In this document: positions 49,831-63,889 of the stretch, piece after piece
Position numbering within the stretch: the first letter of the stretch is position 1
Layout: each line of letters starts with the position of its first letter
Source of the DNA: Bacteroidota bacterium
Lineage (GTDB): Bacteria; Bacteroidota; Bacteroidia; Chitinophagales; Chitinophagaceae
NCBI GenBank assembly: GCA_016868815.1
Contig: VGFQ01000012.1
Span: 16,028-80,027 of the forward strand
DNA length: 64,000 nt
Direction: 5' to 3'
Notes under the pieces: generated by a model
The model's input: the letters and a program-made list of their open reading frames with translations, nothing else
Database searches by the model: none
Told to the model about the DNA's origin: nothing
Made by a program: the position numbers and the translations under genes

Positions 49831-51129
49831 TCAGGGTACGGCAATGCGTACGGTTATCCATTTGCGGGTCTTATAGCCACCGTGGTTTCTGGGATAGGTG
49901 AGTATGATATCTTTGGTCTCCCTGTCTTCAAGCATGGAGAAATGGGAGATGTCGAGTCGACCCTGGCTGCGGTCGGGCTCCTCTTCTCTGTCTAGCTCGA
50001 GGAGGCTGCTGCGATAGAGTCGGGCGCTCTTGGGGTCTATTTCTGCCATAACCAGCGGCCACCTTGGCAGGTTGCCTTCCGGGTTTTGGGCTGTCAGATT
50101 CCCAAACCAGAAGACCCTGCCGCTCGAGTGTCGGAACAGGTTCGACATGGCAGAGGGGGAGAAAAAGGGTGTGCCGTCGTCGAAGGCGAAGGGTTCAGGT
50201 TTGGTCCAGCTGCGTCCTCCGTCACTGGAGAGGGACTGCCATTTGTATCCTGGCATGCGATAGCCAGACTTATCCTTGACATCATTGCTGCCGCGCATCA
50301 CCAGGAGGATACGGCCATCGGGCAGTTCGGCGAGGGTGGGCTCAATCATGCCGCGGCTTGACCTTTTGGGGTCGGCCTCTACGCGATCTCCCATGCTCCA
50401 TTCGATGCGGTGGTTCTTGGTCCATCGGCCCATAAGGATGATCACATCTGTATATGTGTACCCGCCGCCGGGGTTGGCGAGTTTACCATCAGGTCCCTGC
50501 AGGGTGGCCTGTGCGGGTACTAGGATCCTGCCTGCACGGGTCACTAGGGGGATGCAGCCCAGGTCCCCCAGGAAGATGGAGTTCTTTCCGATTTCGATGC
50601 CGGGTAAGGGCTTTTTCGGATCTTTCCTTCCTTTGAGTATGATGGGGGTCTCATGTACCCAACTGCGTCCACCGTCGGCCGACACGCGGTAGCGCAGATA
50701 GTAGTTGCTCAGGGCAATGGGCGGCTCGTTGATGGCGGGGTCGAGGTCGGGTAGGTCGAGTGCATTGACTATGGTCAGCAACCGGCCTGTCCGCTCGTCC
50801 AGGACTGAGGTCACCGGGTTGCGGCGATAGCCTTTGGGTAGGCCATCCATGTAGTTGGGCGTCATCGGTTGGAGCCGCCAGCTGCGGCCGTTGTCATCGG
50901 ATACACTGTCGCCGGAGCGCATGCGGGTGCCAGTGGGTTCCAGATAGATGCCGGAGGCGCCGGAGCCCGACCCGAAGATGGTGGCGTGTAGGGCAGGCAT
51001 CTCAGTTGTGACCAGGCGGCTTCGACTCTGCGCAGGTAGCGGCAGCTGTGCCAGGGCCTCGCAGTGGTTGCCAGCTGCCAGCAGTAGTCCCGCAAGTGAA
51101 GCCGCAAAAGGGGGTGTAGGCATAAGCAA
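49831..51129 (-). CDS. Sialidase-fold (BNR/Asp-box) exported glycosidase-like protein (BNR-1)
   Basis: Asp boxes SDDNGRSW, SADGGRSW, SSDGGRSW. N-terminal signal-like sequence. Confidence 0.78.
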   Translation of the reverse strand: MLMPTPPFAASLAGLLLAAGNHCEALAQLPLPAQSRSRLVTTEMPALHATIFGSGSGASGIYLEPTGTRMRSGDSVSDDNGRSWRLQPMTPNYMDGLPKGYRRNPVTSVLDERTGRLLTIVNALDLPDLDPAINEPPIALSNYYLRYRVSADGGRSWVHETPIILKGRKDPKKPLPGIEIGKNSIFLGDLGCIPLVTRAGRILVPAQATLQGPDGKLANPGGGYTYTDVIILMGRWTKNHRIEWSMGDRVEADPKRSSRGMIEPTLAELPDGRILLVMRGSNDVKDKSGYRMPGYKWQSLSSDGGRSWTKPEPFAFDDGTPFFSPSAMSNLFRHSSGRVFWFGNLTAQNPEGNLPRWPLVMAEIDPKSARLYRSSLLELDREEEPDRSQGRLDISHFSMLEDRETKDIILTYPRNHGGYKTRKWITVRIAVP

Positions 51130-51168
51130 TCAACATATACCGGCATGATGAGCCGGTGGATATAATAT

Positions 51169-52350
51169 TTATTTTGCAATCAGGTCCTTCTCGCTGAAGG
51201 CTATACGCAGCTCACCGAACATCGTGGTGATCCATAGCTCACCGGGAGTTCTTTCCAAGAAGTAGGGATATGAAACCTGTGTTCTTAGTCGGGTCACCTT
51301 GGCCATGACGATGGGTTCGCTCCAGCTGCGGCCATCGTCGTTGGAGAAGCTGACGGAGAGTTCTTCGCGGTGGTTGCTTTGGAAGACTTCTGCCCAGTTC
51401 TGGTCGCCACCGCGCAGCGGGTAATTGGTCTTGCCTTGCGGCATACTCTGGTTCCAAATGAGGATGAGTCTGCCGCTTTTCAGTCGCTTGAACATCGCGG
51501 GAGCGGAGCTGGCTGTCAAGGGGGTGGAGCGGAAGCTGTCCCAGGTGAGGCCTTTATCTTTGGAACGGGTCTCCCAAAGAGATCCCCAGTTGGTGCGCAT
51601 GTACATGAGCAGGCTTCCATCTTTCATTTCTTCTAGGGTGGACTCTGTCACGCCAGAGTGATGGCCGACGCCGCCCAAGTCGATGACATTGCTGCGTTTC
51701 CATGATCTGCCTTCATCGCTGCTGGTATAGGTGAGGACTGTGTGGTGGCCGGGGTTATGGCGCATCATCATGGTGGTAAAGACAACATTTCCGTCTCTGG
51801 TCTCGATGATGTCTCGGATGGCCCCTGTCCAGTCGCGGTGCATCAGCTGGGGTTCCTGCCAGGTGCGGCCACCGTCATTGCTGCGTACAACATAGGTGGG
51901 CAGCACGGCGCCAGGCATATCGTGGGTTTCATTATTCCAGTTGAATACTGATTTTTCTTTGTCGTTCATAAAGGCCAGGATGAGGGTGCCTTTACGAGTG
52001 CGGATGAGGGCGCGTTCGTTGCGGATTGAATATTTCGAGGTGTCTCTGAAAATGGGGTAGGTTGTCCAGGTCTTTCCTTCGTCTTGACTGATGAGGCATT
52101 TGGTGGTGTCGACCGTCAGGATGGAGCCGTCGGGCATGTTGACGAAGGGGCCCATACGCAGCCCGGTTAGCTCGCGGCTGGCGGGATGGATCCAGATGGC
52201 GTTGGAGGTAAACTTGCCTGTGCGGGTGTCGATGGTGTCTTTCAAGGGGGGGGTCTGGCCTTTATGGATGTAGGCCTTCCCCCGGACGGGCAGTAAGAGG
52301 GATAAGGACATCCCTACATAGAGGATCAGAATGGCATTTTTCCCTTTCAT
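51169..52350 (-). CDS. Sialidase-fold (BNR/Asp-box) protein (BNR-2)
   Basis: Asp boxes SQDEGKTW, SNDGGRTW, SSDEGRSW, SNDDGRSW; ESTLEEMKDGSLLMYMRTNWGSLWETRS; PYFLERTPGELWITTMFGELR. Confidence 0.82.
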   Translation of the reverse strand: MKGKNAILILYVGMSLSLLLPVRGKAYIHKGQTPPLKDTIDTRTGKFTSNAIWIHPASRELTGLRMGPFVNMPDGSILTVDTTKCLISQDEGKTWTTYPIFRDTSKYSIRNERALIRTRKGTLILAFMNDKEKSVFNWNNETHDMPGAVLPTYVVRSNDGGRTWQEPQLMHRDWTGAIRDIIETRDGNVVFTTMMMRHNPGHHTVLTYTSSDEGRSWKRSNVIDLGGVGHHSGVTESTLEEMKDGSLLMYMRTNWGSLWETRSKDKGLTWDSFRSTPLTASSAPAMFKRLKSGRLILIWNQSMPQGKTNYPLRGGDQNWAEVFQSNHREELSVSFSNDDGRSWSEPIVMAKVTRLRTQVSYPYFLERTPGELWITTMFGELRIAFSEKDLIAK

Positions 52351-52424
52351 GGTAATCGTTTTTGATGTGATGGATTTGTTTTATCAGGGTTAATGGCAAT
52401 GCATGATGAAGGTGTTATGGGAGA

Positions 52425-53603
52425 TCATCGACCTATGAAATCCTTTTCACGCAGGGAGAGGCGGAGTCCTCCGAACATGGTCGTGATCCATACTTCACCA
52501 GGGCTTCTTTCGAGAAAGTAGGGATAGGATACCTGCGTGTTCGGGAGTGTGACTTTTGCGATTACGATGGGGTCGCTCCAATGTTTTCCCTCATCTTCGG
52601 AGAAGCTGATGGATAGCTCTTCGCGGTGGTTGCTTTGAAAGACTTCCGACCATTCTTTATCGCCGCCGCGCAGCGGGTAGCTTGTCTTGCCCTGTGGCAT
52701 GCTCTGGTTCCAGATCAGGATGAGCCGGCCGCTTTTCATTCGTTTGAACATGGCAGGGGCTGAGCTGGACATGATGGGGGTGGAGCGATAGTTCGTCCAG
52801 CTAATCCCTTTGTTGGTAGAGCGGGTCTCCCATAGGGATCCCCAGTTGGTCCGCATGTACATCAGAAGGCTTCCATCTGTCATTTCTTCGAGCGTTGATT
52901 CTGTCACGCCCGAGTGGTGGCCGATACCGCCGAGATCGATGATGTTGCTCCGCGTCCAAGACTTGCCTTCGTCGCGGCTGGTGTAGGTTAGAACTGAGTT
53001 CCTACCAGGATTTGAAAGCAGCATCATACTCGTGAAAATGACATGGCCATCTTTTGTCTCAATGATGTCTCGTACGGCTCCGGTCCATTCGCGGTGCATG
53101 AGCTGTGGCTCCTGCCAGGTCTTGCCGTTGTCGTAACTTCTCACCACATAGGTCGGCAAGACGGATCCGGGTGCGTCGTGGGTCTGGCTATTCCAGGATC
53201 GGCGATGCTCTTTCTCGTTCATAAAGGCGAGGATGAGGGTTCCCTTGCGGGTTCGGATCAGGGATCTTTCCATGCGGATCAGGAACCGGGAGCTGTCTTT
53301 GAAGATGGGGAAAGATTTCCAGCTCCGACCTTCATTCAGACTGACCAGGCATTGGGTGCTATCGATGGTGAGGATTGATTTGTCGGGTAGGTGGACGAAA
53401 GGCCCCATGCGCAGGCCGGTGAGTGCCCGGCTAGAGGGATGTATCCAAATGCCATTGGAGGTAAACGGGCCCTTGCGGGTGTCGATGGTGTCTTTAAGGA
53501 CCTGTGTGTGGGCAAGTGGTTTGCGCTCCTTTGTCATGGCAAGCAGGAAGAGTGGGAGGGTCAATGTGGCAAGCCAGTTGACTAAGGGGGGTATCCTATT
53601 CAT
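52425..53603 (-). CDS. Sialidase-fold (BNR/Asp-box) protein (BNR-3), tandem paralogue of BNR-2
   Basis: Near-collinear with BNR-2 (TFTSNGIWIHPSSRALTGLRMGPFVHLPDKSILTIDSTQCLVS; PYFLERSPGEVWITTMFGGLR); Asp boxes SYDNGKTW, SRDEGKSW, SEDEGKHW. Confidence 0.82.
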   Translation of the reverse strand: MNRIPPLVNWLATLTLPLFLLAMTKERKPLAHTQVLKDTIDTRKGPFTSNGIWIHPSSRALTGLRMGPFVHLPDKSILTIDSTQCLVSLNEGRSWKSFPIFKDSSRFLIRMERSLIRTRKGTLILAFMNEKEHRRSWNSQTHDAPGSVLPTYVVRSYDNGKTWQEPQLMHREWTGAVRDIIETKDGHVIFTSMMLLSNPGRNSVLTYTSRDEGKSWTRSNIIDLGGIGHHSGVTESTLEEMTDGSLLMYMRTNWGSLWETRSTNKGISWTNYRSTPIMSSSAPAMFKRMKSGRLILIWNQSMPQGKTSYPLRGGDKEWSEVFQSNHREELSISFSEDEGKHWSDPIVIAKVTLPNTQVSYPYFLERSPGEVWITTMFGGLRLSLREKDFIGR

Positions 53604-54339
53604 GGCTGGCTTTTCTCTGGCTTACCATTGCATCCAGGAGTTTTTCCGCCATGAGCGCATGGCCTTGGTCGTTGGGATGCATCCCATCTAGCAGCAGGCT
53701 CTCCAATGGCTGCCTTCGGTATTTAAATTCGCGACGAAAGACCGAGGATATATCCAGCCAGCGTGCGCCTGTGCGACGGGCGACCTTTCGGGAGGCCCGT
53801 CGGTATCTTTCCAGTCTGCGGGCATGAAAGCCTGCGTAGCAAATTCCTGCAGGGTTAGGTCCTAGGATGATGGTTCGCCCGCCTATAGAGTCGATGGACT
53901 TAACGAAGCTGGACAAGCATTGCTGAAATCGGTCTAGTGAGATGCGAGATGGCGTTCCCCTGCCTTTATCCTGCCAGGAGTCGTTGATCCCAAAGGCCAC
54001 GATGAGCCAGTCGGGTTGCTGAGAAAGGACATCGTACCGGAACCGGTCGGTGCCATGTGCGATCCGGTGGAAGGCATTGTCGGCCAGCGTGGCTGCGTGG
54101 CTTCCGCCTTTGCCAGCATTGTGTATGCGGGCTGGAATCCCTTCGTTGAGTATCCGTGCTGCCAGTCTTTCGGGATAGGGTTGCTGTAATGCCTTCCTGG
54201 GTGCGGTGGTGGATTTGCCCAGGCAGACGACCACCAGGCTGTCGGCCAGCAGCGATGGTTCCATCGTCCTTTCTTTCGCAGCGGGGATGGCTGCCGAGAG
54301 GGCTATGACGGCGAGGGCTGCCGGGACGAGGGGTTTCAT
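53596..54339 (-). CDS. SGNH/GDSL family hydrolase
   Basis: LVVVCLGKSTTAP (divergent block I), NAGKGGSHAAT, VAFGINDSWQD, LLDGMHPNDQGHALMAEKLLD. Confidence 0.82.
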   Translation of the reverse strand: MKPLVPAALAVIALSAAIPAAKERTMEPSLLADSLVVVCLGKSTTAPRKALQQPYPERLAARILNEGIPARIHNAGKGGSHAATLADNAFHRIAHGTDRFRYDVLSQQPDWLIVAFGINDSWQDKGRGTPSRISLDRFQQCLSSFVKSIDSIGGRTIILGPNPAGICYAGFHARRLERYRRASRKVARRTGARWLDISSVFRREFKYRRQPLESLLLDGMHPNDQGHALMAEKLLDAMVSQRKASHE

Positions 54340-55205
54340 CTGCGCCAGTTGTGCATGAAGGGGGCGGTCGCGTAGGGCGCTGCGATCACCCCATTGTCCG
54401 CCAGCTTTTCTTTAATGTTGAACATCCAGTTTCTGGGCAGGTCTGGTAGGAGCATCTCTGTCATGCCTTTCCAAAATGCAGCCTGGAGGCTCATGGCGCT
54501 GTCAATATCTCGCTGCATGCCGGCCTCGCAGAGTGCTTTTAAGAGCCGGATAAAGCAGACGCCTCCGCCGGTGACCAGCCCATCACAGCCCAGCAGGAGC
54601 GAGGCGTCGTAGACAGACTCATCGCCCTGCATGATGGTGCCGGGGCGGGAGGCTTTGTCTGGGTAGCGCCGAAGAAGTTCGGAGAAGGATCCAAACTGGC
54701 AGGCTGAGTCTTTGACGCCACTGACGGCCGGTAGTTGGAGGATGCGGTCGAGGGTGTCCGTGGCGACGGGGTTGCCGGTGGAGCCGGGGGCGTTGTAAAA
54801 GATCAGGGGCAGGCGTGTCGACTCCGCGGTACGGGACACATGCGTCAGCATGCTTTCCGGATCCGGGAAGCGGTAGTAGTAGGGGGAGGTCGTCACCAGG
54901 TAGTCAGCCCCTAGCTGCTCTGCCCGCCGGGCGTAGCTGAGGGTTCGGCGGGTGGAGGCTCCCGATACAGTGACCAGCAGGGGCAGACGCTTATTGACCT
55001 GCTCGCACGCTACTTCTATGGCCGCTTCACGCACCGCGTCCAGCAGGGCAGCCCCTTCTCCCATGCTCCCGAGGATCATGAGGCCGTCGGCCCCATCTTC
55101 GATGCAATGATCGATGAGTCGTCGGAATGAGGGGATATCCAGGTCTTCATTGTCCAGGAGCGGCGTGGGCATGGCAATGACCAGGCCACCAAGTCTTTTC
55201 TCCAT
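54336..55205 (-). CDS. Dihydrodipicolinate synthase/N-acetylneuraminate lyase family aldolase
   Basis: GADGLMILGSMGEGAAL, TTSPYYYRFPDPESMLTHV, PLIFYNAPGSTGN, AVSGVKDSAC Schiff-base Lys region. Start chosen at MEKRLGGLVIAMPTPLL. Confidence 0.88.
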   Translation of the reverse strand: MEKRLGGLVIAMPTPLLDNEDLDIPSFRRLIDHCIEDGADGLMILGSMGEGAALLDAVREAAIEVACEQVNKRLPLLVTVSGASTRRTLSYARRAEQLGADYLVTTSPYYYRFPDPESMLTHVSRTAESTRLPLIFYNAPGSTGNPVATDTLDRILQLPAVSGVKDSACQFGSFSELLRRYPDKASRPGTIMQGDESVYDASLLLGCDGLVTGGGVCFIRLLKALCEAGMQRDIDSAMSLQAAFWKGMTEMLLPDLPRNWMFNIKEKLADNGVIAAPYATAPFMHNWRR

Positions 55206-55230: not shown

Positions 55231-55280
55231 TTCCGTACCGAATTTAACACATATGTCCGACATATGTACGGAAAATTCGG
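55231..55280. promoter_or_regulatory. Candidate GntR/FadR-type operator upstream of the dapA-like gene
   Basis: ATATGT-CCG-ACATAT palindrome at 55251-55265, flanked by nested inverted repeats TTCCGTAC/GTACGGAA and CCGAATTT/AAATTCGG. Confidence 0.65.
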
Positions 55281-55286
55281 AGCTCC

Positions 55287-55985
55287 TCACATTTTATCCA
55301 GGAAATACCAGAGATGGCTTTCCATTTTATTGCGGAATCCGGAGGGATTCCCGTGTTGCAGTTCCTGGATGAGGTCTCGGTGGGTGGCCCGATGGGAGGG
55401 GGGGTGAAGGTCTTTGCGGGAGGCATGAACCTTGTCGACAATGTCGAAGATGGGGTTGAGCATGTTTTGGAAGCGGATGATGGTATCGTTTCCGGACATG
55501 CGGTAGAGTTGGGCATGGAATTCAACGTCTAGCCGCAGGCGCTCAATGCGGTCGTTGCTTTGTTCCTCCTGTGTGGCGATGTCCTCCAGTCGTTCAATGT
55601 CTTCCAGCGTCTTCCGGAGAAAGACGAAATGTGCCAGCCCGATTTCTATGACCAGTCGCATCTCGAACATATCGCGCATGGTCTCCCCATCCAGGAGTTT
55701 CGGGTCCAGCACCCGTTGCAGGTTGCCGAGTACGTCAGGGCGTGTCAACATCATACCCCGGTTCTTGCGAGACTCAATGATACCAAGCGTCTTGAACCTG
55801 GAGAGTGCTTCCCGAACAGCGGTACGGCTGACCCCCAGGGCCCGGGCGATCTCCACTTCTTTGGGAAGGTAGTCGCCCGGCTTGAAATGCCCCTCCTTGA
55901 GGTATTCCTCCAATCGGTTCTCTATCTGATCCACCTGGGTGAGGTGCTCGATGGGTCTGAGACGGGTCAGGGGCATAGGCTGCAT
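55287..55985 (-). CDS. FadR/GntR family transcriptional regulator
   Basis: LEEYLKEGHFKPGDYLPKEVEIARALGVSRTAVREALSRFKTLGIIESRKNRGMML (GntR wHTH), FCD-type C-terminal helical domain. Confidence 0.93.
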   Translation of the reverse strand: MQPMPLTRLRPIEHLTQVDQIENRLEEYLKEGHFKPGDYLPKEVEIARALGVSRTAVREALSRFKTLGIIESRKNRGMMLTRPDVLGNLQRVLDPKLLDGETMRDMFEMRLVIEIGLAHFVFLRKTLEDIERLEDIATQEEQSNDRIERLRLDVEFHAQLYRMSGNDTIIRFQNMLNPIFDIVDKVHASRKDLHPPSHRATHRDLIQELQHGNPSGFRNKMESHLWYFLDKM

Positions 55986-56065
55986 GTTCTGGTCTGCACG
56001 TTAAATATCCATTGAAATTTTTTTCAAAAAAAGTTGTTTGCGTATAACAATTTCGTAAGATTGTT

Positions 56066-56080
56066 ATATGTATGACATAT
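56066..56080. promoter_or_regulatory. Candidate GntR/FadR-type operator in the gntR-susC intergenic region
   Basis: ATATGT-ATG-ACATAT palindrome, same half-sites and spacer length as 55251-55265; lies 31 bp before the susC ATG. Confidence 0.65.
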
Positions 56081-56110: not shown

Positions 56111-59100
56111 ATGAGAAAGGTATGGTTCATCATCCTGCTGACTTTTTCCTATGCGGGACTGACGATGGCCCAGACGGCTAAGGTCAGCGGCCGGGTCACG
56201 GCGCAGGACGGGACGCCGGTATCTGGCGCCAGCATTGTCGTCAAAGGGGGCATAGCCGGTGCACAGTCGGCGCCTGATGGCACGTTCAGCCTCAATGCCA
56301 GCGCCAAGGATGTGCTAGTCGTCACTGCGGTAGGCTTTGAGTCCAGCGAGGTGACAGCCGCCTCGGGCGTATTACTAGAGGTCGTACTCCAGCCTGACAA
56401 TGCCAAGCTCAGCGAGGTGGTGGTCGTGGGATACGGCACCCAGTCGCGCCGCAATGTGACGAGTGCCATCTCCAAATTAGATGGCCAGGTCCTGTCCAAT
56501 ACCCCCCGGGCAAACGTGGGGACAGCCCTGCAGGGAACCGTCTCGGGCCTGCAGGTGGTCAATGCAACAGGCAGTCCCGGAGCCACCCCACTCATCTTGC
56601 TGCGCGGCGGCGCCTCCATCAACAGTCCGGGCGCCCCTCTGGTCGTCATCGACGGGATCATCCGTCCTTTCAACGACATTGCCGCTCAGGACATCGAATC
56701 TGTTGAACTGCTCAAGGATGCTGCTGCCACTGCGATCTATGGAGCCCGGGCCAACAACGGGGTCATCCTGATCACGACGAAGCAGGGCAAAGCCGGTACT
56801 GCTCAGGTGTCGTATAAGTATACGGTAGGCTTCAACCGGAACCGCGAGGGCTATCAATTCATGAATGCACGGGATTACATCTATTACAACCGGCTGGGCA
56901 ACCTCAACTCCGGCCGCACCCTGGCACAGGTGGACGCCACCCCCGGGTATGGAGTGTTGACAACGCCTGCATATCTGGCATCTTTCGATATACGCCGTTT
57001 CTCTCCCACCACGGCCTCACTTCTCCAGCAAGGCTGGGATACGGTGAGCGACCCCTATGGAGGTGTACTTATCTTCAAAGATTACAGTGGAGAGGTGGAG
57101 AGTGTCCTGTTTCGCAATACTCGTACAGACGACCATTACGTCAATGTCGCTGGTGGCAACGACCGTGGTAAGTACTACGCCAGCTTTGACTATTTCACTG
57201 AAGATGGACTGATCATAGGCACCAGCTATAAGCGCTACTCCGCAGATCTGAACGGATCGTATAAGATCCGTCAGAACCTCGAGTTGAGCAGCATGGTGAA
57301 CATGTCGACGTCGTCGCAGTACGGAACGTTGGCATCCGAGATCAATACCCTATATCGGACACGTGCCATCTGGCCGACCTTCAAGCCCTGGCTCGATACT
57401 GAGAAGACCATGCCCAACCCGGGCAATGGTTCCTCCGACGGCAACCCCGTCTACTGGCTGGGCAAGATTAACCGTCGCAACGAGGTGAACCGCATCACGG
57501 CCTCTACAATCCTCAAATGGGACCTCACCAAGGATCTGTATATCAAGGCAACTGCATCTGCCTATCTGTTTGAGAATATCGATGAGGCCTCTACCAAGGC
57601 AACCCAAACTTACACCCAGATGTTCGCCGTGCCACAAGCCTTCAATGTGACACGTCCCTCCCGCGCTAGCTTCTCTAGGGCTTTCCAGGCCCAATACAAC
57701 ACTTTCGCCAACTATTCCAAGACCCTTGGCAAAGGGCATAACCTGAATGCCATGCTGGGTGCCGAGTTCTTCGATACAAGGGACTTTGATATGCAGGCTT
57801 CAGGTACCAATGCTCCGACAGACGAAATACCGACGGTCAACGCGGCCACGCTCTTTGCAGCGGGGAGCAACTACTCAAACAAATCACAGTTCCGCATCGC
57901 ATCCACCTTTGGACGCCTCAACTACGACTTAGACAATCGACTTCTCGTCTCGTTTGTCTTTCGCCGCGATGGCGTCTCGAGCCTAGCGGAGCAAAATCGC
58001 TTCGGTGTCTTCCCCGGCATGAGTGCTGGCTGGAACCTCCATCGGGAGTCATTTTTCAAGAATAGCGGCCTCTCCAACTTTATCAACACCTTCAAGCCGC
58101 GCGTGAGCTACGGGGAGAACGGCAACGTGGCCGGGCTGGGCCGGTATGAAGTGCAGGGTACCTACGGGGCACAGTCACTCTACAACAATACCGGCGGCTT
58201 CCTGCAGACAACCCTCTCCAACCCGAACCTGCGGTGGGAGCGGAGTAAGACGACGGATATAGGCCTTGACCTAGGCATGTTCGGCAACCGCGTCACACTC
58301 ATCTTTGACTATTTCGACCGCGTGACGAGCGACCTGCTGACCAACCTGGCACTCCCTGACTATACAGGCTTTGGATCCGTCCGCACCAACCTGGGCTCCT
58401 ACCAGAACAAGGGCTATGAGTTCACCCTGAACGCGACGATCCTGAGCATGCCTAACGGCTTCAAACTCGAAGCTGGCGGAAATGCCACCTATGTCAGCAA
58501 CAAAATCCTGAAGCTTCCCTTCAACGGCAATGACTTGAACCGCCAGGGCGGCTTTCAGATTTGGGATCCTGCCAGCTCCAAGATCATCTGGGTGAGTGGC
58601 CTGCAGGAAGGGAAGCGGCTCGGAGAGATCTTCGCCTTCAAGCAGCTCGGCATCTTCCGCGATAACGCAGAGATCGCCAAAGTAGCAGCCAACCGCTGGG
58701 ATCAGGTGGCCCTCATCGGAGGTCCTTCCCGCCCCGGCAACAACAAAATCACGCCAGGGGATGTCAATTGGCTGGACGTCGACAAGAACGACACCATCGA
58801 CTCGCGCGACCAGGTCTATATCGGGAATATCTTCCCCAAATGGACGGGCGGCTTCAACCTCAACGCCAGCTATAAGGGTCTGACCCTCTACACCCGCTTC
58901 GAGTTCGCCACGGGCCATACCATCTACAACGATTTGCTCGCACGGACGCTGGGCAACATGCAGGGCACCTTTAACTACTTCGTAGAGAACAAGTCGGCAT
59001 GGTCGCCTACCAACCCGGTATCTGACCTACCCAAGATCTACTATGCAGACCAGGTGGCAGCCCCCCTCGGGAAGAAAAACTACACGCGCATCAACAATGC

Positions 59101-59386
59101 CAGTGCCTTTTTGAACAGCAACAACTCGCGTATCTATGAGAAAGGGGACTACCTGGCCCTTAGGGAGGTGACCCTCTCCTACGACCTGTCGAAGTCGATG
59201 CTGGCGCGCACCAAGGTGGTCAGCCGTGCGCGTGTCTATGTGAGCGGCTCCAACTTACACTACTTCACCAAGTACTCGGGTCGTACACCGGAGCCCCCCG
59301 TAGAGGGCGGTGTCATTAGCGGCGTGGACAGAGGCATCTATCCCCTGCCCCGCACCTATGTGCTGGGATTGGAAGTATCTTTCTAA
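56111..59386 (+). CDS. susC-like: SusC/RagA family TonB-linked outer membrane protein
   Basis: Carboxypeptidase-D-like N-domain; EVVVVGYGTQSRRNVTSAISKLDG; plug LLRGGASINSPGAPLVVIDGI, VELLKDAAATAIYGARANNGVILITTKQGK. Confidence 0.96.
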   Translation: MRKVWFIILLTFSYAGLTMAQTAKVSGRVTAQDGTPVSGASIVVKGGIAGAQSAPDGTFSLNASAKDVLVVTAVGFESSEVTAASGVLLEVVLQPDNAKLSEVVVVGYGTQSRRNVTSAISKLDGQVLSNTPRANVGTALQGTVSGLQVVNATGSPGATPLILLRGGASINSPGAPLVVIDGIIRPFNDIAAQDIESVELLKDAAATAIYGARANNGVILITTKQGKAGTAQVSYKYTVGFNRNREGYQFMNARDYIYYNRLGNLNSGRTLAQVDATPGYGVLTTPAYLASFDIRRFSPTTASLLQQGWDTVSDPYGGVLIFKDYSGEVESVLFRNTRTDDHYVNVAGGNDRGKYYASFDYFTEDGLIIGTSYKRYSADLNGSYKIRQNLELSSMVNMSTSSQYGTLASEINTLYRTRAIWPTFKPWLDTEKTMPNPGNGSSDGNPVYWLGKINRRNEVNRITASTILKWDLTKDLYIKATASAYLFENIDEASTKATQTYTQMFAVPQAFNVTRPSRASFSRAFQAQYNTFANYSKTLGKGHNLNAMLGAEFFDTRDFDMQASGTNAPTDEIPTVNAATLFAAGSNYSNKSQFRIASTFGRLNYDLDNRLLVSFVFRRDGVSSLAEQNRFGVFPGMSAGWNLHRESFFKNSGLSNFINTFKPRVSYGENGNVAGLGRYEVQGTYGAQSLYNNTGGFLQTTLSNPNLRWERSKTTDIGLDLGMFGNRVTLIFDYFDRVTSDLLTNLALPDYTGFGSVRTNLGSYQNKGYEFTLNATILSMPNGFKLEAGGNATYVSNKILKLPFNGNDLNRQGGFQIWDPASSKIIWVSGLQEGKRLGEIFAFKQLGIFRDNAEIAKVAANRWDQVALIGGPSRPGNNKITPGDVNWLDVDKNDTIDSRDQVYIGNIFPKWTGGFNLNASYKGLTLYTRFEFATGHTIYNDLLARTLGNMQGTFNYFVENKSAWSPTNPVSDLPKIYYADQVAAPLGKKNYTRINNASAFLNSNNSRIYEKGDYLALREVTLSYDLSKSMLARTKVVSRARVYVSGSNLHYFTKYSGRTPEPPVEGGVISGVDRGIYPLPRTYVLGLEVSF

Positions 59387-59425
59387 GCATTGCGCCACAT
59401 CCAAACCAAACCTAAACATTGTATC

Positions 59426-60949
59426 ATGAGACATATCATCAAACATCTGACCCTCCTGGCCATGGCGCTACTGCTGGCTGCCTGTGCCAAGCGGCTCGAC
59501 TTGGCACCCATCAGCAGCGTCGGCGAGGGCAACTTTTGGCAGACAGGCGACCAGGTGGAGGCCTTCGTCTCCGGCCTACATTCCCGTTTCCGTACCCACG
59601 TGCAGCGATTCCTCTACCTGGGAGAGATGCGGGCAGACATCCACGGCACCGACCCCGGCACCAATTCCGCCTTCACCGGTGAATCCACGGCAGGCAACGA
59701 ACGGCTCTGGCAGAACACGCTGACCCTCGACGCGCCGGGCGTATCCGGCTATGGCGGCTTTTACTCCAACATCAACCAGCTCAACCTGCTCATCTCCAAG
59801 ATGAAGACGAGCACGGTCATGACCACCTCCAATCGAAACTACTACCTGGGCATAGCCCATGGCATTCGCGCCTTCTACTACTTCCAGCTCTATGTGTCCT
59901 GGGGAAAAGTCATCATCACCACAGAGCCTACGCAGGAGTTCGACATCAGCAACCTCGCCAAGGCGGCCTCTTCGGAAGCGGACGTGCTAAAACTGATCAA
60001 AGATGACATTGAGACGTCCCTCACAAGTTTTGGCAGCGACTATTCCTTCCGTCAGGGTAAAGGCTATTGGTCTAAGGCCGCAAGCCTGATGCTCAAGGCG
60101 GACTATCACCTTTGGCTGGCCCACCGGGCCGGAGGCACCGCGGGTGCAGGCACCGCCAAGGCTGCGCTGGTCGATATCCAGACCAACATCCCTGCATTGT
60201 CTCTTCAGTCCAACTTCGGCAACATCTTTGCGACCACCAACCGCGGCAACAGCGAAGTCATCTTCGCCAGCCGCCACCTGCTGAACGAAGCGACGCTGCC
60301 CGTCCAGCAACACACCCCGCAAAACGCCTTCATCATCAACTTTCACGACTCTGCCCAGCGCCGCCGCTTCGACGCCACCGACAACTGGGGCGGCCCTTAC
60401 TTCTTGTCGATGCGTTCCTCGACCTTCCGTCGTTTCAACGACCGCGACACCCGGAAATGGGCAACCATCCAGCCTTGCTACACGCTTTCCGGAACGACCT
60501 ACCGGCTGTCCGGGGTTTTCCCATCTAAATACAAGGGCGAACAGGCCGCCGGTGTACGCGCCTATACGAACGACTATATCATCTACCGCCATGCCGACCT
60601 GCTCCTGATGTTGGCAGAGGCCAAAGTGCTCCTGGGCGAGAACCCCGCTGCCGAGATCAATGCCGTACGCCAGCGGGCCTTCGGTGCAGCATACGTGGCT
60701 GCCACCGATGCCTTCCCCAATAAACCAGGCGACAGCAATGCCAAGGATGCCATCCTGGAAGAGCGCTACCTCGAGTTCATCATGGAAGGCAAGCGCTGGC
60801 TGGACCTGCGCCGTTTTGGCGACAGCTATGTCTTCCGGTTCACCAACATCAGAGCCGCGGAGGCATATAAAGTCCTTTGGCCCGTCGACAGAAATACACT
60901 GACCAACAATAAACTGCTGGAACAAACCCCCGGTTATCCTAAATTCTAA
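59426..60949 (+). CDS. susD-like: SusD/RagB family nutrient-binding outer membrane lipoprotein
   Basis: Lipobox LLLAAC; follows susC; FYYFQLYVSWGKV; RHADLLLMLAEAKVLLGENPAAEINAVRQRA; ILEERYLEFIMEGKRWLDLRRFG. Confidence 0.95.
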   Translation: MRHIIKHLTLLAMALLLAACAKRLDLAPISSVGEGNFWQTGDQVEAFVSGLHSRFRTHVQRFLYLGEMRADIHGTDPGTNSAFTGESTAGNERLWQNTLTLDAPGVSGYGGFYSNINQLNLLISKMKTSTVMTTSNRNYYLGIAHGIRAFYYFQLYVSWGKVIITTEPTQEFDISNLAKAASSEADVLKLIKDDIETSLTSFGSDYSFRQGKGYWSKAASLMLKADYHLWLAHRAGGTAGAGTAKAALVDIQTNIPALSLQSNFGNIFATTNRGNSEVIFASRHLLNEATLPVQQHTPQNAFIINFHDSAQRRRFDATDNWGGPYFLSMRSSTFRRFNDRDTRKWATIQPCYTLSGTTYRLSGVFPSKYKGEQAAGVRAYTNDYIIYRHADLLLMLAEAKVLLGENPAAEINAVRQRAFGAAYVAATDAFPNKPGDSNAKDAILEERYLEFIMEGKRWLDLRRFGDSYVFRFTNIRAAEAYKVLWPVDRNTLTNNKLLEQTPGYPKF

Positions 60950-60961
60950 TTTGGTTTGAAT

Positions 60962-60996
60962 GCGCGTGGCAGCCGATGGGCTGCCGCGCTTTTTTT
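60962..60996 (+). terminator. Rho-independent terminator or attenuator after susD
   Basis: GCGCGtGGCAGCC-GATG-GGCTGCCGCGC hairpin followed by TTTTTTT. Confidence 0.8.
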
Positions 60997-61010: not shown

Positions 61011-62144
61011 ATGCAAAAAATATCCTTTGTGCTGAGCCTCTGCCTGGCAGCCTTGCTGCCGTTTTGCTCAACCGTGGGCACTGCCCAGACAGCAGCCACG
61101 GACGCCCCCTTTCAAAAAGTGCTGCAGCTGCCGCCCGGCCCGGACAACCCCCGCAACAGCGAATGTGCCTTCATCACATTGAAAGATGGCTCCATCCTGA
61201 TGGTCTACAGCCATTTTTATGGCAGCTCCTCCAGTGATTATGGTACGGCACGACTGGCCTCGCGTCGCTCTCACGATGGTGGCCGCACCTGGTCCGCGCA
61301 GGACAAGGTGGTCGTAGCCAATGAGGGGGGCATGAATGTCATGTCTGTCTCCCTCCTTCGGCTGCAGGATGGGCATATCGCCCTTTTCTATGCCCGTAAG
61401 AATGCCCATGCCGACTGCATCCCGATGGTTAGATACTCTTCAGATGAGGCAGCCACCTGGTCTGAAGCCAGGGCCTGCATCACCGATGTGCCAGGATATT
61501 ATGTCCTCAACAACGACCGAGTGATTCAACTGGAGGATGGCAGGCTCCTCATGCCGGTGGCCATGCACCAGTCGCCCACGGAACCCTGGCAGGACCGTGG
61601 CCGCATCTTCTGCTACCGCTCAGACGACAACGGACAGAGTTGGCAGCGGAGCGCCCAGGTGGCGAACCCCGATACTGTGATCACACAAGAGCCCGGTGTT
61701 GTCGCTTTGCGCAATGGGCATATCCTCATGTTCCTGCGCACCAATGCCGGCGTGCAGTATGTCTCGCGGTCCAGGGACGGCGGTGTCTCCTGGTCGCCTG
61801 CCAGCCGCAGCAAGATCGTATCGCCGTTGTCACCCGCCTCGATCAAACGCATGCCGGATGGCCGGAGGCTCGTGATGGTCTGGAACCGCAACGATGGCAG
61901 CGATCCGGAAATCCGCGGCAAGAGGACCCCATTGACGATTGCCGTCTCCGACAATGAAGGCCGTCGTTGGAAGCATGTCACGACCCTGGAGTCCGACAAA
62001 GATGGATGGTACTGCTATATTGCGATGCATTTTACGGCCGAAGGACGACTGCTGCTGGGGTATTGCGCCGGAAGCCAGCGCCGCAAGACGAGGCTTGCCC
62101 AGACAGACCTCGCCCTGATTAACCCGGACCGACTGATGTATTGA
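61011..62144 (+). CDS. Exo-alpha-sialidase-like (BNR/Asp-box) exported protein (BNR-4)
   Basis: Signal peptide; SECAFITLKDGSILMVYSHF; Asp boxes SHDGGRTW, SDDNGQSW, SRDGGVSW; SPASIKRMPDGRRLVMVWNRND. Confidence 0.86.
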   Translation: MQKISFVLSLCLAALLPFCSTVGTAQTAATDAPFQKVLQLPPGPDNPRNSECAFITLKDGSILMVYSHFYGSSSSDYGTARLASRRSHDGGRTWSAQDKVVVANEGGMNVMSVSLLRLQDGHIALFYARKNAHADCIPMVRYSSDEAATWSEARACITDVPGYYVLNNDRVIQLEDGRLLMPVAMHQSPTEPWQDRGRIFCYRSDDNGQSWQRSAQVANPDTVITQEPGVVALRNGHILMFLRTNAGVQYVSRSRDGGVSWSPASRSKIVSPLSPASIKRMPDGRRLVMVWNRNDGSDPEIRGKRTPLTIAVSDNEGRRWKHVTTLESDKDGWYCYIAMHFTAEGRLLLGYCAGSQRRKTRLAQTDLALINPDRLMY

Positions 62145-62162: not shown

Positions 62163-63074
62163 ATGAAGCACCCCGTTACCATTGACTCCGGGAAGCCCGG
62201 TCCTTCTCTCCTGATTACTGCGGGCGTCCATGGCGATGAGTATGAGCCGCTGATGGCGGCCTTTCGACTGATGGATGGTCTGGGGGGCATGTTGTCGTCT
62301 GGCAAGGTGACCGTCGTAGCCGGAGTCAACGAGACAGCTGTGCGGGCACACCTCCGGTGCGGCGCTGACAGCCTGGACCTGGCCCGTACCTGCCCGGGGG
62401 ATGCCCTTGGCTCACCTACCCAGGCAGATGCCTTTGCAGTGAGTGCCCTCATCCGGGCAGCGGATGCGCTGATAGACCTCCATACGGGTGGGCGGATCTT
62501 CGACATCCATCCCATGGCGGGATATATGGTACATCCTGAACGGTCTGTCCTGGCTGCCAACCGGGCCATGGCCCAGGCATTTGGCCTTCCGTTGATTTGG
62601 GGTACTGATCCTGCCCCCAATGGCCGTACCCTCTCCATTGCCAGGGATGCCGGCATCCCTTCCATCTATGTCGAATATGGCGGTGGCTCAATGGTCAGGC
62701 CCCATATCGCCGAAGCTTATGTACAGGGCTGCCTTCGGGTCATGTCTTCCTTTTCCATGCTCCTGGAGCCGCTGCCCCCTGCCGGACCGCCAGACTTTTG
62801 GATAGAGGATGCCGCACCCAATCAAGGGCATCTGCAGTCGAAAATGCCGGCACCCTGTGCGGGCATCTTCCTTCCGGCGGTGGCCCTGGGAGACTCCATC
62901 ACGCAAGGGGACCTATGGGGGCATATCCTCGATGTCCACACCGGGCAGCGCCTTCCTGTTCAGGCTGAGGATACGGGGCTGGTCTTATTCCTGCGGGTGG
63001 ATGCTGTCGTGTCGGCCGGTGACTCCCTCGGGGGCATCTGTGCTGTGAATGCCAAAACCATCTATCGCCCATGA
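62163..63074 (+). CDS. Succinylglutamate desuccinylase/aspartoacylase family Zn-dependent deacylase
   Basis: ITAGVHGDEYEPLMAA (HxxE Zn motif), ADALIDLHTGG, IPSIYVEYGGG. Confidence 0.87.
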   Translation: MKHPVTIDSGKPGPSLLITAGVHGDEYEPLMAAFRLMDGLGGMLSSGKVTVVAGVNETAVRAHLRCGADSLDLARTCPGDALGSPTQADAFAVSALIRAADALIDLHTGGRIFDIHPMAGYMVHPERSVLAANRAMAQAFGLPLIWGTDPAPNGRTLSIARDAGIPSIYVEYGGGSMVRPHIAEAYVQGCLRVMSSFSMLLEPLPPAGPPDFWIEDAAPNQGHLQSKMPAPCAGIFLPAVALGDSITQGDLWGHILDVHTGQRLPVQAEDTGLVLFLRVDAVVSAGDSLGGICAVNAKTIYRP

Positions 63075-63889
63075 TGCAGGGAAAGTCTGTCATCCTCACC
63101 GGAGCTGCCGGTGGTATCGGCCGGGCCATCGCCCAAAAGTTTGCGGCGGAAGGCTGTCGGCTAACCCTCGTCGACATGGAAGAGGCTGCCCTCCACTCGC
63201 TGGCAGAAGTGCTCAAGGCACATCCCGGTGCCGATGTTTTGGTGTTGTCCGGCGACTTGGCCGCTCCTGCCTTCCTACAGCAGGTGGCCCATGAGGCGGT
63301 CGCGCGTTGGGGACGCATCGACGTCTTGGTCAACAACGCGGCCTGGCGGCGACTCGGTAGTCTACGGCAGATCAGTCTGGATGATTGGCAACGGACGATC
63401 GATGTTTGCCTCACTGCGCCAGCCTTCCTGGGAAGGGCTGTGGCGGAGGTCATGGAACGCACAGGCACGGGCGGGGTCATCGTGAATGTCTCCAGTATGA
63501 TGTCTGAGCGGCCGGCAGGGAATAGTCCGGGTTATATTGCCGCTAAGGCAGGCCTGGAGGGGTTGACAAGAGAGATGGCCGTCACCTATGGCCGCAGCCG
63601 CATACGGGCTGTCTGTGTACGGCCTGGGTACATCGACACGGGCCTCAGCCACGACTATGAGACAGACACTACGGCCCGCGGGTTGACCGACCGGCTGGGG
63701 GGCTATCTGACAGACGCCACTCCCCTGAGCAGTCCGGGGCAGCCGGAGGAAGTGGCAGAGGCCATCTGCTGGCTGGCTTCACCGGCAGCCGCTTTTATCT
63801 CCGGCACCTGCCTGACCATCGACGGAGGATTCACCCATAACCTAAACAGCTATCCGCTCAAACACCAGCAGTTCCCCGATGAGTACTAG
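63071..63889 (+). CDS. SDR family oxidoreductase
   Basis: VILTGAAGGIGRAIAQKFAAEG, VLVNNAAWRRLG, YIAAKAGLEGLTREMAV, GTCLTIDGGFT. Confidence 0.92.
   Translation: MMQGKSVILTGAAGGIGRAIAQKFAAEGCRLTLVDMEEAALHSLAEVLKAHPGADVLVLSGDLAAPAFLQQVAHEAVARWGRIDVLVNNAAWRRLGSLRQISLDDWQRTIDVCLTAPAFLGRAVAEVMERTGTGGVIVNVSSMMSERPAGNSPGYIAAKAGLEGLTREMAVTYGRSRIRAVCVRPGYIDTGLSHDYETDTTARGLTDRLGGYLTDATPLSSPGQPEEVAEAICWLASPAAAFISGTCLTIDGGFTHNLNSYPLKHQQFPDEY

Follow-up and report, generated by a model that had tools for sequence, protein, structure and literature searches.

A GntR-family protein and paired palindromic candidate operators at a SusCD locus of Bacteroidota

The window analyzed here, a 64,000-nucleotide stretch of a Chitinophagaceae genome assembly (Bacteroidota), carries a SusCD utilization locus (Table 1). 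Its adjacent susC and susD genes are accompanied by degradative and uptake genes, and this arrangement is kept in relatives. The gntR gene and the aldolase gene beside it are oriented leftward, and susC and susD are oriented rightward.

Table 1. Coordinates of genes and predicted regulatory features in the window.
Feature	Coordinates	Strand	Remarks
BNR_2 protein, probably the last gene of the aldolase arm	49831..51129	-	PF13088 9.3e-13
BNR_2 protein, aldolase arm	51169..52350	-	PF13088 4e-30
BNR_2 (sialidase-type propeller) protein, aldolase arm	52425..53603	-	PF13088 2.6e-28
GDSL/SGNH hydrolase, aldolase arm	53596..54339	-	PF13472 3.5e-20
DHDPS/NAL-family aldolase ("dapA-like")	54336..55205	-	PF00701 1.9e-38; under NCBIfam DapA and NanA cut-offs
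Predicted -7 box TAAATTCG, aldolase arm	55239..55246	-	4 nt downstream of operator 1
Predicted operator 1, ATATGT-CCG-ACATAT	55251..55265	.	gntR/dapA-like gap; exact in 6/6 close orthologues, same place
gntR, GntR winged HTH + FCD regulator, 232 aa	55287..55985	-	PF00392 1.5e-17, PF07729 1e-16
Predicted susC -33 element TTG	56034..56036	+	19 nt ahead of -7 box
Predicted susC -7 box TAAGATTG (TAnnWTTR)	56056..56063	+	TA..ATTG invariant in seven close genomes
Predicted operator 2, ATATGT-ATG-ACATAT	56066..56080	.	between divergent gntR and susC; exact in 6/6 close orthologues
SusC-type TonB-dependent receptor	56111..59386	+	PF00593, PF07715, PF13715; start by orthologue alignment
SusD-type lipoprotein	59390..60949	+	PF07980 3e-22; mechanical ORF coordinates
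Hairpin resembling a terminator, T7 tail, behind susD	60964..60996	+	11-bp stem; -25.5 kcal/mol, z -4.86
BNR_2 (sialidase-like) protein, susC arm	61011..62144	+	PF13088 5.4e-36
AstE/AspA-type deacylase, susC arm	62163..63074	+	PF24827 3.8e-23
SDR oxidoreductase, susC arm	63071..63889	+	NCBIfam SDR models, best 9.7e-58, below that model's cut-off

Some of these boundaries required adjustment. The mechanically called susC reading frame starts at 56072, inside operator 2, and this start is not real because alignment of the orthologues points to the ATG at 56111. The gntR gene may begin at the ATG at 55976, as in its orthologues, and the aldolase gene probably starts at the ATG at 55205-55203 on the minus strand. 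Because a strong terminator-like hairpin separates susD from the BNR gene behind it, the genes past this point may be more weakly expressed or may need a promoter of their own. Four BNR_2 propellers are present in this one locus, three in the aldolase arm (49831-53603) and one in the susC arm (61011-62144). The latter is the one that was compared with solved structures; its closest chains are mostly bacterial sialidases, with weak matches and only distant similarity.

Two palindromes flank gntR at exactly the positions given in an earlier note on this DNA. Operator 1 is situated in the 81 nt that separate the gntR stop at 55287 from the aldolase ATG, and operator 2 ends 30 nt ahead of the conserved susC ATG. 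The exact pattern ATATGTNNNACATAT has two copies in the window and none in 100 dinucleotide shuffles. Throughout the whole assembly (2,847,907 bases), exact ATATGT-N3-ACATAT is found only at these two positions, a model of independent bases predicts about 0.07 sites, and the reversed-pattern control returned zero sites. With up to two mismatches allowed, the window scan gave just the two exact sites, compared to 1.39 expected, and this count by itself does not exceed chance. Therefore, the case stands on exactness, position, and conservation.

To assess conservation among close relatives, 100 genomes (its own plus 99 relatives) were searched for a gntR orthologue. Close orthologues (58-84% identity) are present in six other genomes of the same genus, and in all six the exact palindrome flanks gntR on both sides, while the spacers and the surrounding DNA differ. 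Exact sites were then counted in a genus set of 41 genomes, seven of which (own included) have a close GntR orthologue. These seven carry 19 exact sites, all on contigs with genes of the GntR-SusCD locus: 14 make up susC-side and dapA-side pairs, and five more are found elsewhere on such contigs. Seven exact sites occur in the remaining 34 genomes, and gntR-paralogue or SusCD-sialidase loci account for three of these. A genome-wide scan had been named beforehand as a test on which the proposed regulon could fail, and the proposal passed, as the motif is rare and tied to the locus in relatives.

Extra exact copies were seen in three relatives (L036:2053, L054:18785 and 7232, L056:1992, L057:2084), at or just inside the starts of genes for PALP and aldo/keto reductase proteins within the same locus. 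It is possible that these are internal operators or are partly constrained by coding, and we do not place them among proven operators because they lie at or inside coding starts. Separately, the gntR orthologue of one genome (G027:C61:6516-7202; L011, L038) has one internal TAG, which is either an assembly error or the mark of a pseudogene, and both operators beside it are intact.

A more distant set of 45 homologous loci was assembled by profile search (38-67% identity, named genomes, almost all Bacteroidota). Genera represented include Chitinophaga, Pedobacter, Sphingobacterium, Niabella, Pontibacter, Dyadobacter, Spirosoma, Polaribacter, and Salegentibacter. Three loci (L072, L085, and L106) are apparently contigs of genus genomes already used, and thus the sets overlap slightly. 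WTATGT-N3-ACATAW, with at most one mismatch and within 800 bp of gntR, is found in 42 of the 45 loci, compared to none for the reversed control, and is absent beside gntR in L096, L099, and L103. Equivalent sites lie upstream of susC in most of the distant loci. A palindrome scan that used no prior motif ranked TATGT-N3-ACATA first among gapped 5-mer palindromes, with 37 of 45 loci carrying it and no more than 4 in shuffles. The profile search also gave 35 loci of lower identity, apparently all non-Bacteroidota, and only one of them has such a site anywhere in the locus. The window genome also encodes a second GntR homologue (L053; G000:C1:100520-101173), 41% identical and adjoining an MFS gene, with no recognizable site; the best match in its upstream gap is 8 of 12.

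These distributions bear on two explanations in which the GntR protein has no part. Chance palindromes in AT-rich intergenic DNA would account for a loose-mismatch count no higher than expected, but shuffles yielded no exact sites, both flanks of gntR keep their sites while the surrounding DNA has diverged, and this conservation footprint extends to 42 of the 45 distant loci, where the control has none. We rejected this explanation, whose probability we consider negligible. The palindromes could instead belong to another regulator such as a Crp-like global factor, since the Bacteroides Crp-type motif, wwwTATGTTnTAnAACATAwww, ends in the same TATGT and ACATA (PMC3878776). However, the gap between these ends is six bases in the Crp motif versus three here. 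Furthermore, a global factor is expected to have many sites, whereas this genome has two, both beside gntR, and in relatives the sites track the gntR orthologue. Another regulator is thus very improbable, and the Crp-type candidate was likewise set aside.

The GntR protein itself has the domain composition of the FadR subfamily, with an N-terminal GntR winged HTH (PF00392, 63.4 bits versus a cut-off of 27) and a C-terminal helical FCD domain (PF07729, 61.9 bits versus 24.3). Two helix arginines, R54 and R58, do not vary among 28 homologues and are presumably the counterparts of FadR Arg45 and Arg49. Operators of this subfamily take the form NyGTM-N0-1-KACNy, with TKGT/ACMA boxes (PMC4494728). 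The earlier note had already matched the half-sites and 3-bp spacer to the GT-N3-AC core of the subfamily. The CCG and ATG spacers also match the finer form GTM-N-KAC, and the GT-N3-AC core with adjoining M and K is shared by both sites and by nearly all susC-side sites in relatives. Unlike the TKGT box, the sites have A instead of K ahead of GT, with a T preceded by A in place of TK. Arg at HTH position 28 (FadR Arg35) favors G/C in the TKGT box. The departure from this box agrees with the protein, because none of the 28 aligned homologues has Arg at the FadR Arg35 position.

Bacteroidota promoters are of the -33/-7 type, and therefore a sigma-70 scan of the window was uninformative. We instead aligned 42 susC-side sites, anchored on the operator. 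A TAnnWTTR box starts at -8 in 20 of these and at -10 in 11 (31 of 42 together), whereas the remaining upstream offsets average 0.13 each. TTG is enriched at offset -32 (11 of 42), and TTTG occurs at -31 to -33 in 17 of 42. The sigma-A -7 box of a flavobacterium spans -12 to -5 (PMC9723704). On this scale the operator would start at about -4 or -2, and operator 2 would therefore cover the predicted susC +1, close to 56068. On the aldolase side, a TAnnTT element lies just downstream of operator 1, and its TA and one later T do not vary in a seven-genome alignment. Because this element is only a few bases past operator 1, the operator is predicted to sit between the -33 and -7 elements, with the start of this arm predicted close to 55234.

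Both placements fit repression. Some GntR-family proteins are known to activate, and the protein might act as an activator or in a mixed mode. However, one operator follows right after the susC -7 box at a fixed offset and the other lies between promoter elements of the aldolase arm, each a typical repressor position, which makes an activating or mixed role very unlikely. Repression at both arms is thus the reading carried forward. The earlier note had the GntR protein regulating itself, susC, and the dapA operon. Control of the two arms gains support from site rarity, paired conservation with gntR, and promoter placement. Autoregulation of gntR in the window genome is plausible but gains no support of its own; many relatives have a second, weaker site close upstream of gntR, and the window genome has the shared site only.

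The gene content of the locus points to a class of inducer. The label "dapA-like" used in the earlier note holds at the level of the aldolase family (PF00701) but not of DapA identity. The match to the NCBIfam DapA equivalog reaches 130 bits against a cut-off of 206, so a lysine-biosynthetic DapA was rejected, and the gene is probably not biosynthetic for lysine. The window aldolase also falls below the NCBIfam NanA cut-off and is diverged. Genes in the 45 distant loci, labeled approximately by best phmmer match, comprise SusC (41 loci), SusD (40), DHDPS/NAL (36), BNR (29), NANM (26), and MFS (18). The NAL-type aldolase of one relative matches N-acetylneuraminate lyase (5afd, 2.7e-66). Likewise, N-acetylneuraminate lyase is the closest solved structure for a second aldolase in the locus of one close relative. 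Close relatives keep the NAL-type aldolase, a NANM-type mutarotase, and an MFS transporter in their loci, and in the close clade the usual set is joined by genes for AstE/AspA deacylase, SDR, PALP, RidA, and MlrC.

The regulator provides a second line of evidence. In Escherichia coli NanR, zinc and Neu5Ac are held by Asp172, His176, His222, His244, and Arg128 (PMC8012715). In a profile alignment with this protein (6on4), the corresponding window residues are position 153, H157, H202, H224, and R110; the last four are invariant in the 28 homologues, and position 153 is always D/E. An equivalent of NanR Arg203, the second arginine for the sialate carboxylate, is absent, and the window residue is Asp. 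From the NAL-type gene set together with the zinc ligands and the Arg128 equivalent, we take sialic acid or a related nonulosonate as the best candidate inducer. The earlier note suggested 2-keto-3-deoxy acids, uronates, and amino acids as effectors; given the sialic-acid-type gene set, sialic acid and related nonulosonates should be placed ahead of these. A sialic-acid-like nonulosonate is the more likely effector than a uronate, judging from sequence.

The unusual AstE/AspA, SDR, PALP, RidA, and MlrC genes leave room for a modified substrate. The same sites and the same GntR protein could answer to a signal other than sialic acid, with the locus handling another N-acylated or 2-keto acid substrate and the ligand pocket changed to suit. 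The genes added in the close clade, the diverged window aldolase, and the unconserved Arg203 position speak for such a signal, which would compete solely with the effector part of our explanation. Against it, close relatives retain the NAL-type aldolase, NANM-type mutarotase, and MFS transporter in their loci, and the zinc ligands and Arg128 equivalent are kept in the protein. We regard a non-sialic signal as an appreciable though doubtful possibility.

In the explanation that we favor, and that we hold to be highly probable, a GntR repressor would act through both palindromes on both arms of the locus, with a sialic-acid-like acid as its inducer. The FCD-domain GntR protein (55287-55985), presumably as a dimer, would bind both ATATGT-N3-ACATAT palindromes. 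Occupancy of site 2, over the predicted susC start, would repress susCD and the genes behind it, and occupancy of site 1, filling the -33/-7 space, would repress the aldolase-GDSL-BNR arm. A pathway acid, most likely sialic acid or a related nonulosonate held at the FCD metal site, would release the repressor, so that uptake and breakdown are switched on together. We infer binding, repression, effector, and substrate from the sites, their rarity, their co-conservation, and their promoter placement.

Palindromes first spotted by eye thus become a putative regulator-operator pair across many Bacteroidota genera. The pair offers a simple and testable way into the sensing of sialic-acid-like sugars by environmental Bacteroidota, and it suggests an inducer class for loci without an assigned substrate. 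A broader proposal is that a Bacteroidota-wide FCD-GntR family controls sialic-acid/nonulosonate SusCD loci through one palindrome, in place of the ROK-family NanR of Bacteroides, with the window clade retuned to an unusual N-acylated nonulosonate; we give this proposal an even chance. No description of the window-type GntR family or its operator was found in the literature searched for GntR, sialic acid, and SusC/SusD, whose coverage excludes most subscription papers. A 2015 survey of FadR-subfamily motifs has no Bacteroidetes member (PMC4494728), and the window operator therefore fills a gap.

Local GntR control of a SusCD locus, which the earlier note considered noteworthy, is less unusual than suggested there, with precedents in AusR (alginate) and ManR (mannosides); our locus is a new example of this known type of control. 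AusR of Zobellia galactanivorans, in the account available through PMC7874173 (Dudek et al. 2020), is a GntR-family repressor of an alginate locus. By that description alone, the likeness is that in both cases a SusCD-type locus of Bacteroidota would be under a repressor of the GntR family. The AusR system as outlined there has several operator copies, and AusR is relieved by pathway intermediates, as proposed for the window protein; the difference is that AusR serves the alginate pathway. ManR (BT2103) and FucR (BT1272) of Bacteroides thetaiotaomicron also exert GntR-family control of sugar use, and the ManR regulon includes a SusC/SusD operon (PMC3878776), but their sugars differ, and they too are likened by description only. 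E. coli NanR shares the FCD domain, the four zinc ligands, the Arg128 equivalent, and a sialic-acid-type neighborhood with our protein, whereas its site consists of GGTATA direct repeats rather than an inverted repeat with a 3-nt spacer (PMC8012715). The window GntR also lacks the Arg203 equivalent, and although NanR is its closest NCBIfam model, it scores 89 bits versus a cut-off of 260. Finally, Bacteroides NanR (BT0433), the predicted controller of sialic acid use in Bacteroidota, belongs to the ROK family (PMC3878776). This protein family is unrelated to GntR, and loci of the window type would thus represent a non-orthologous replacement.
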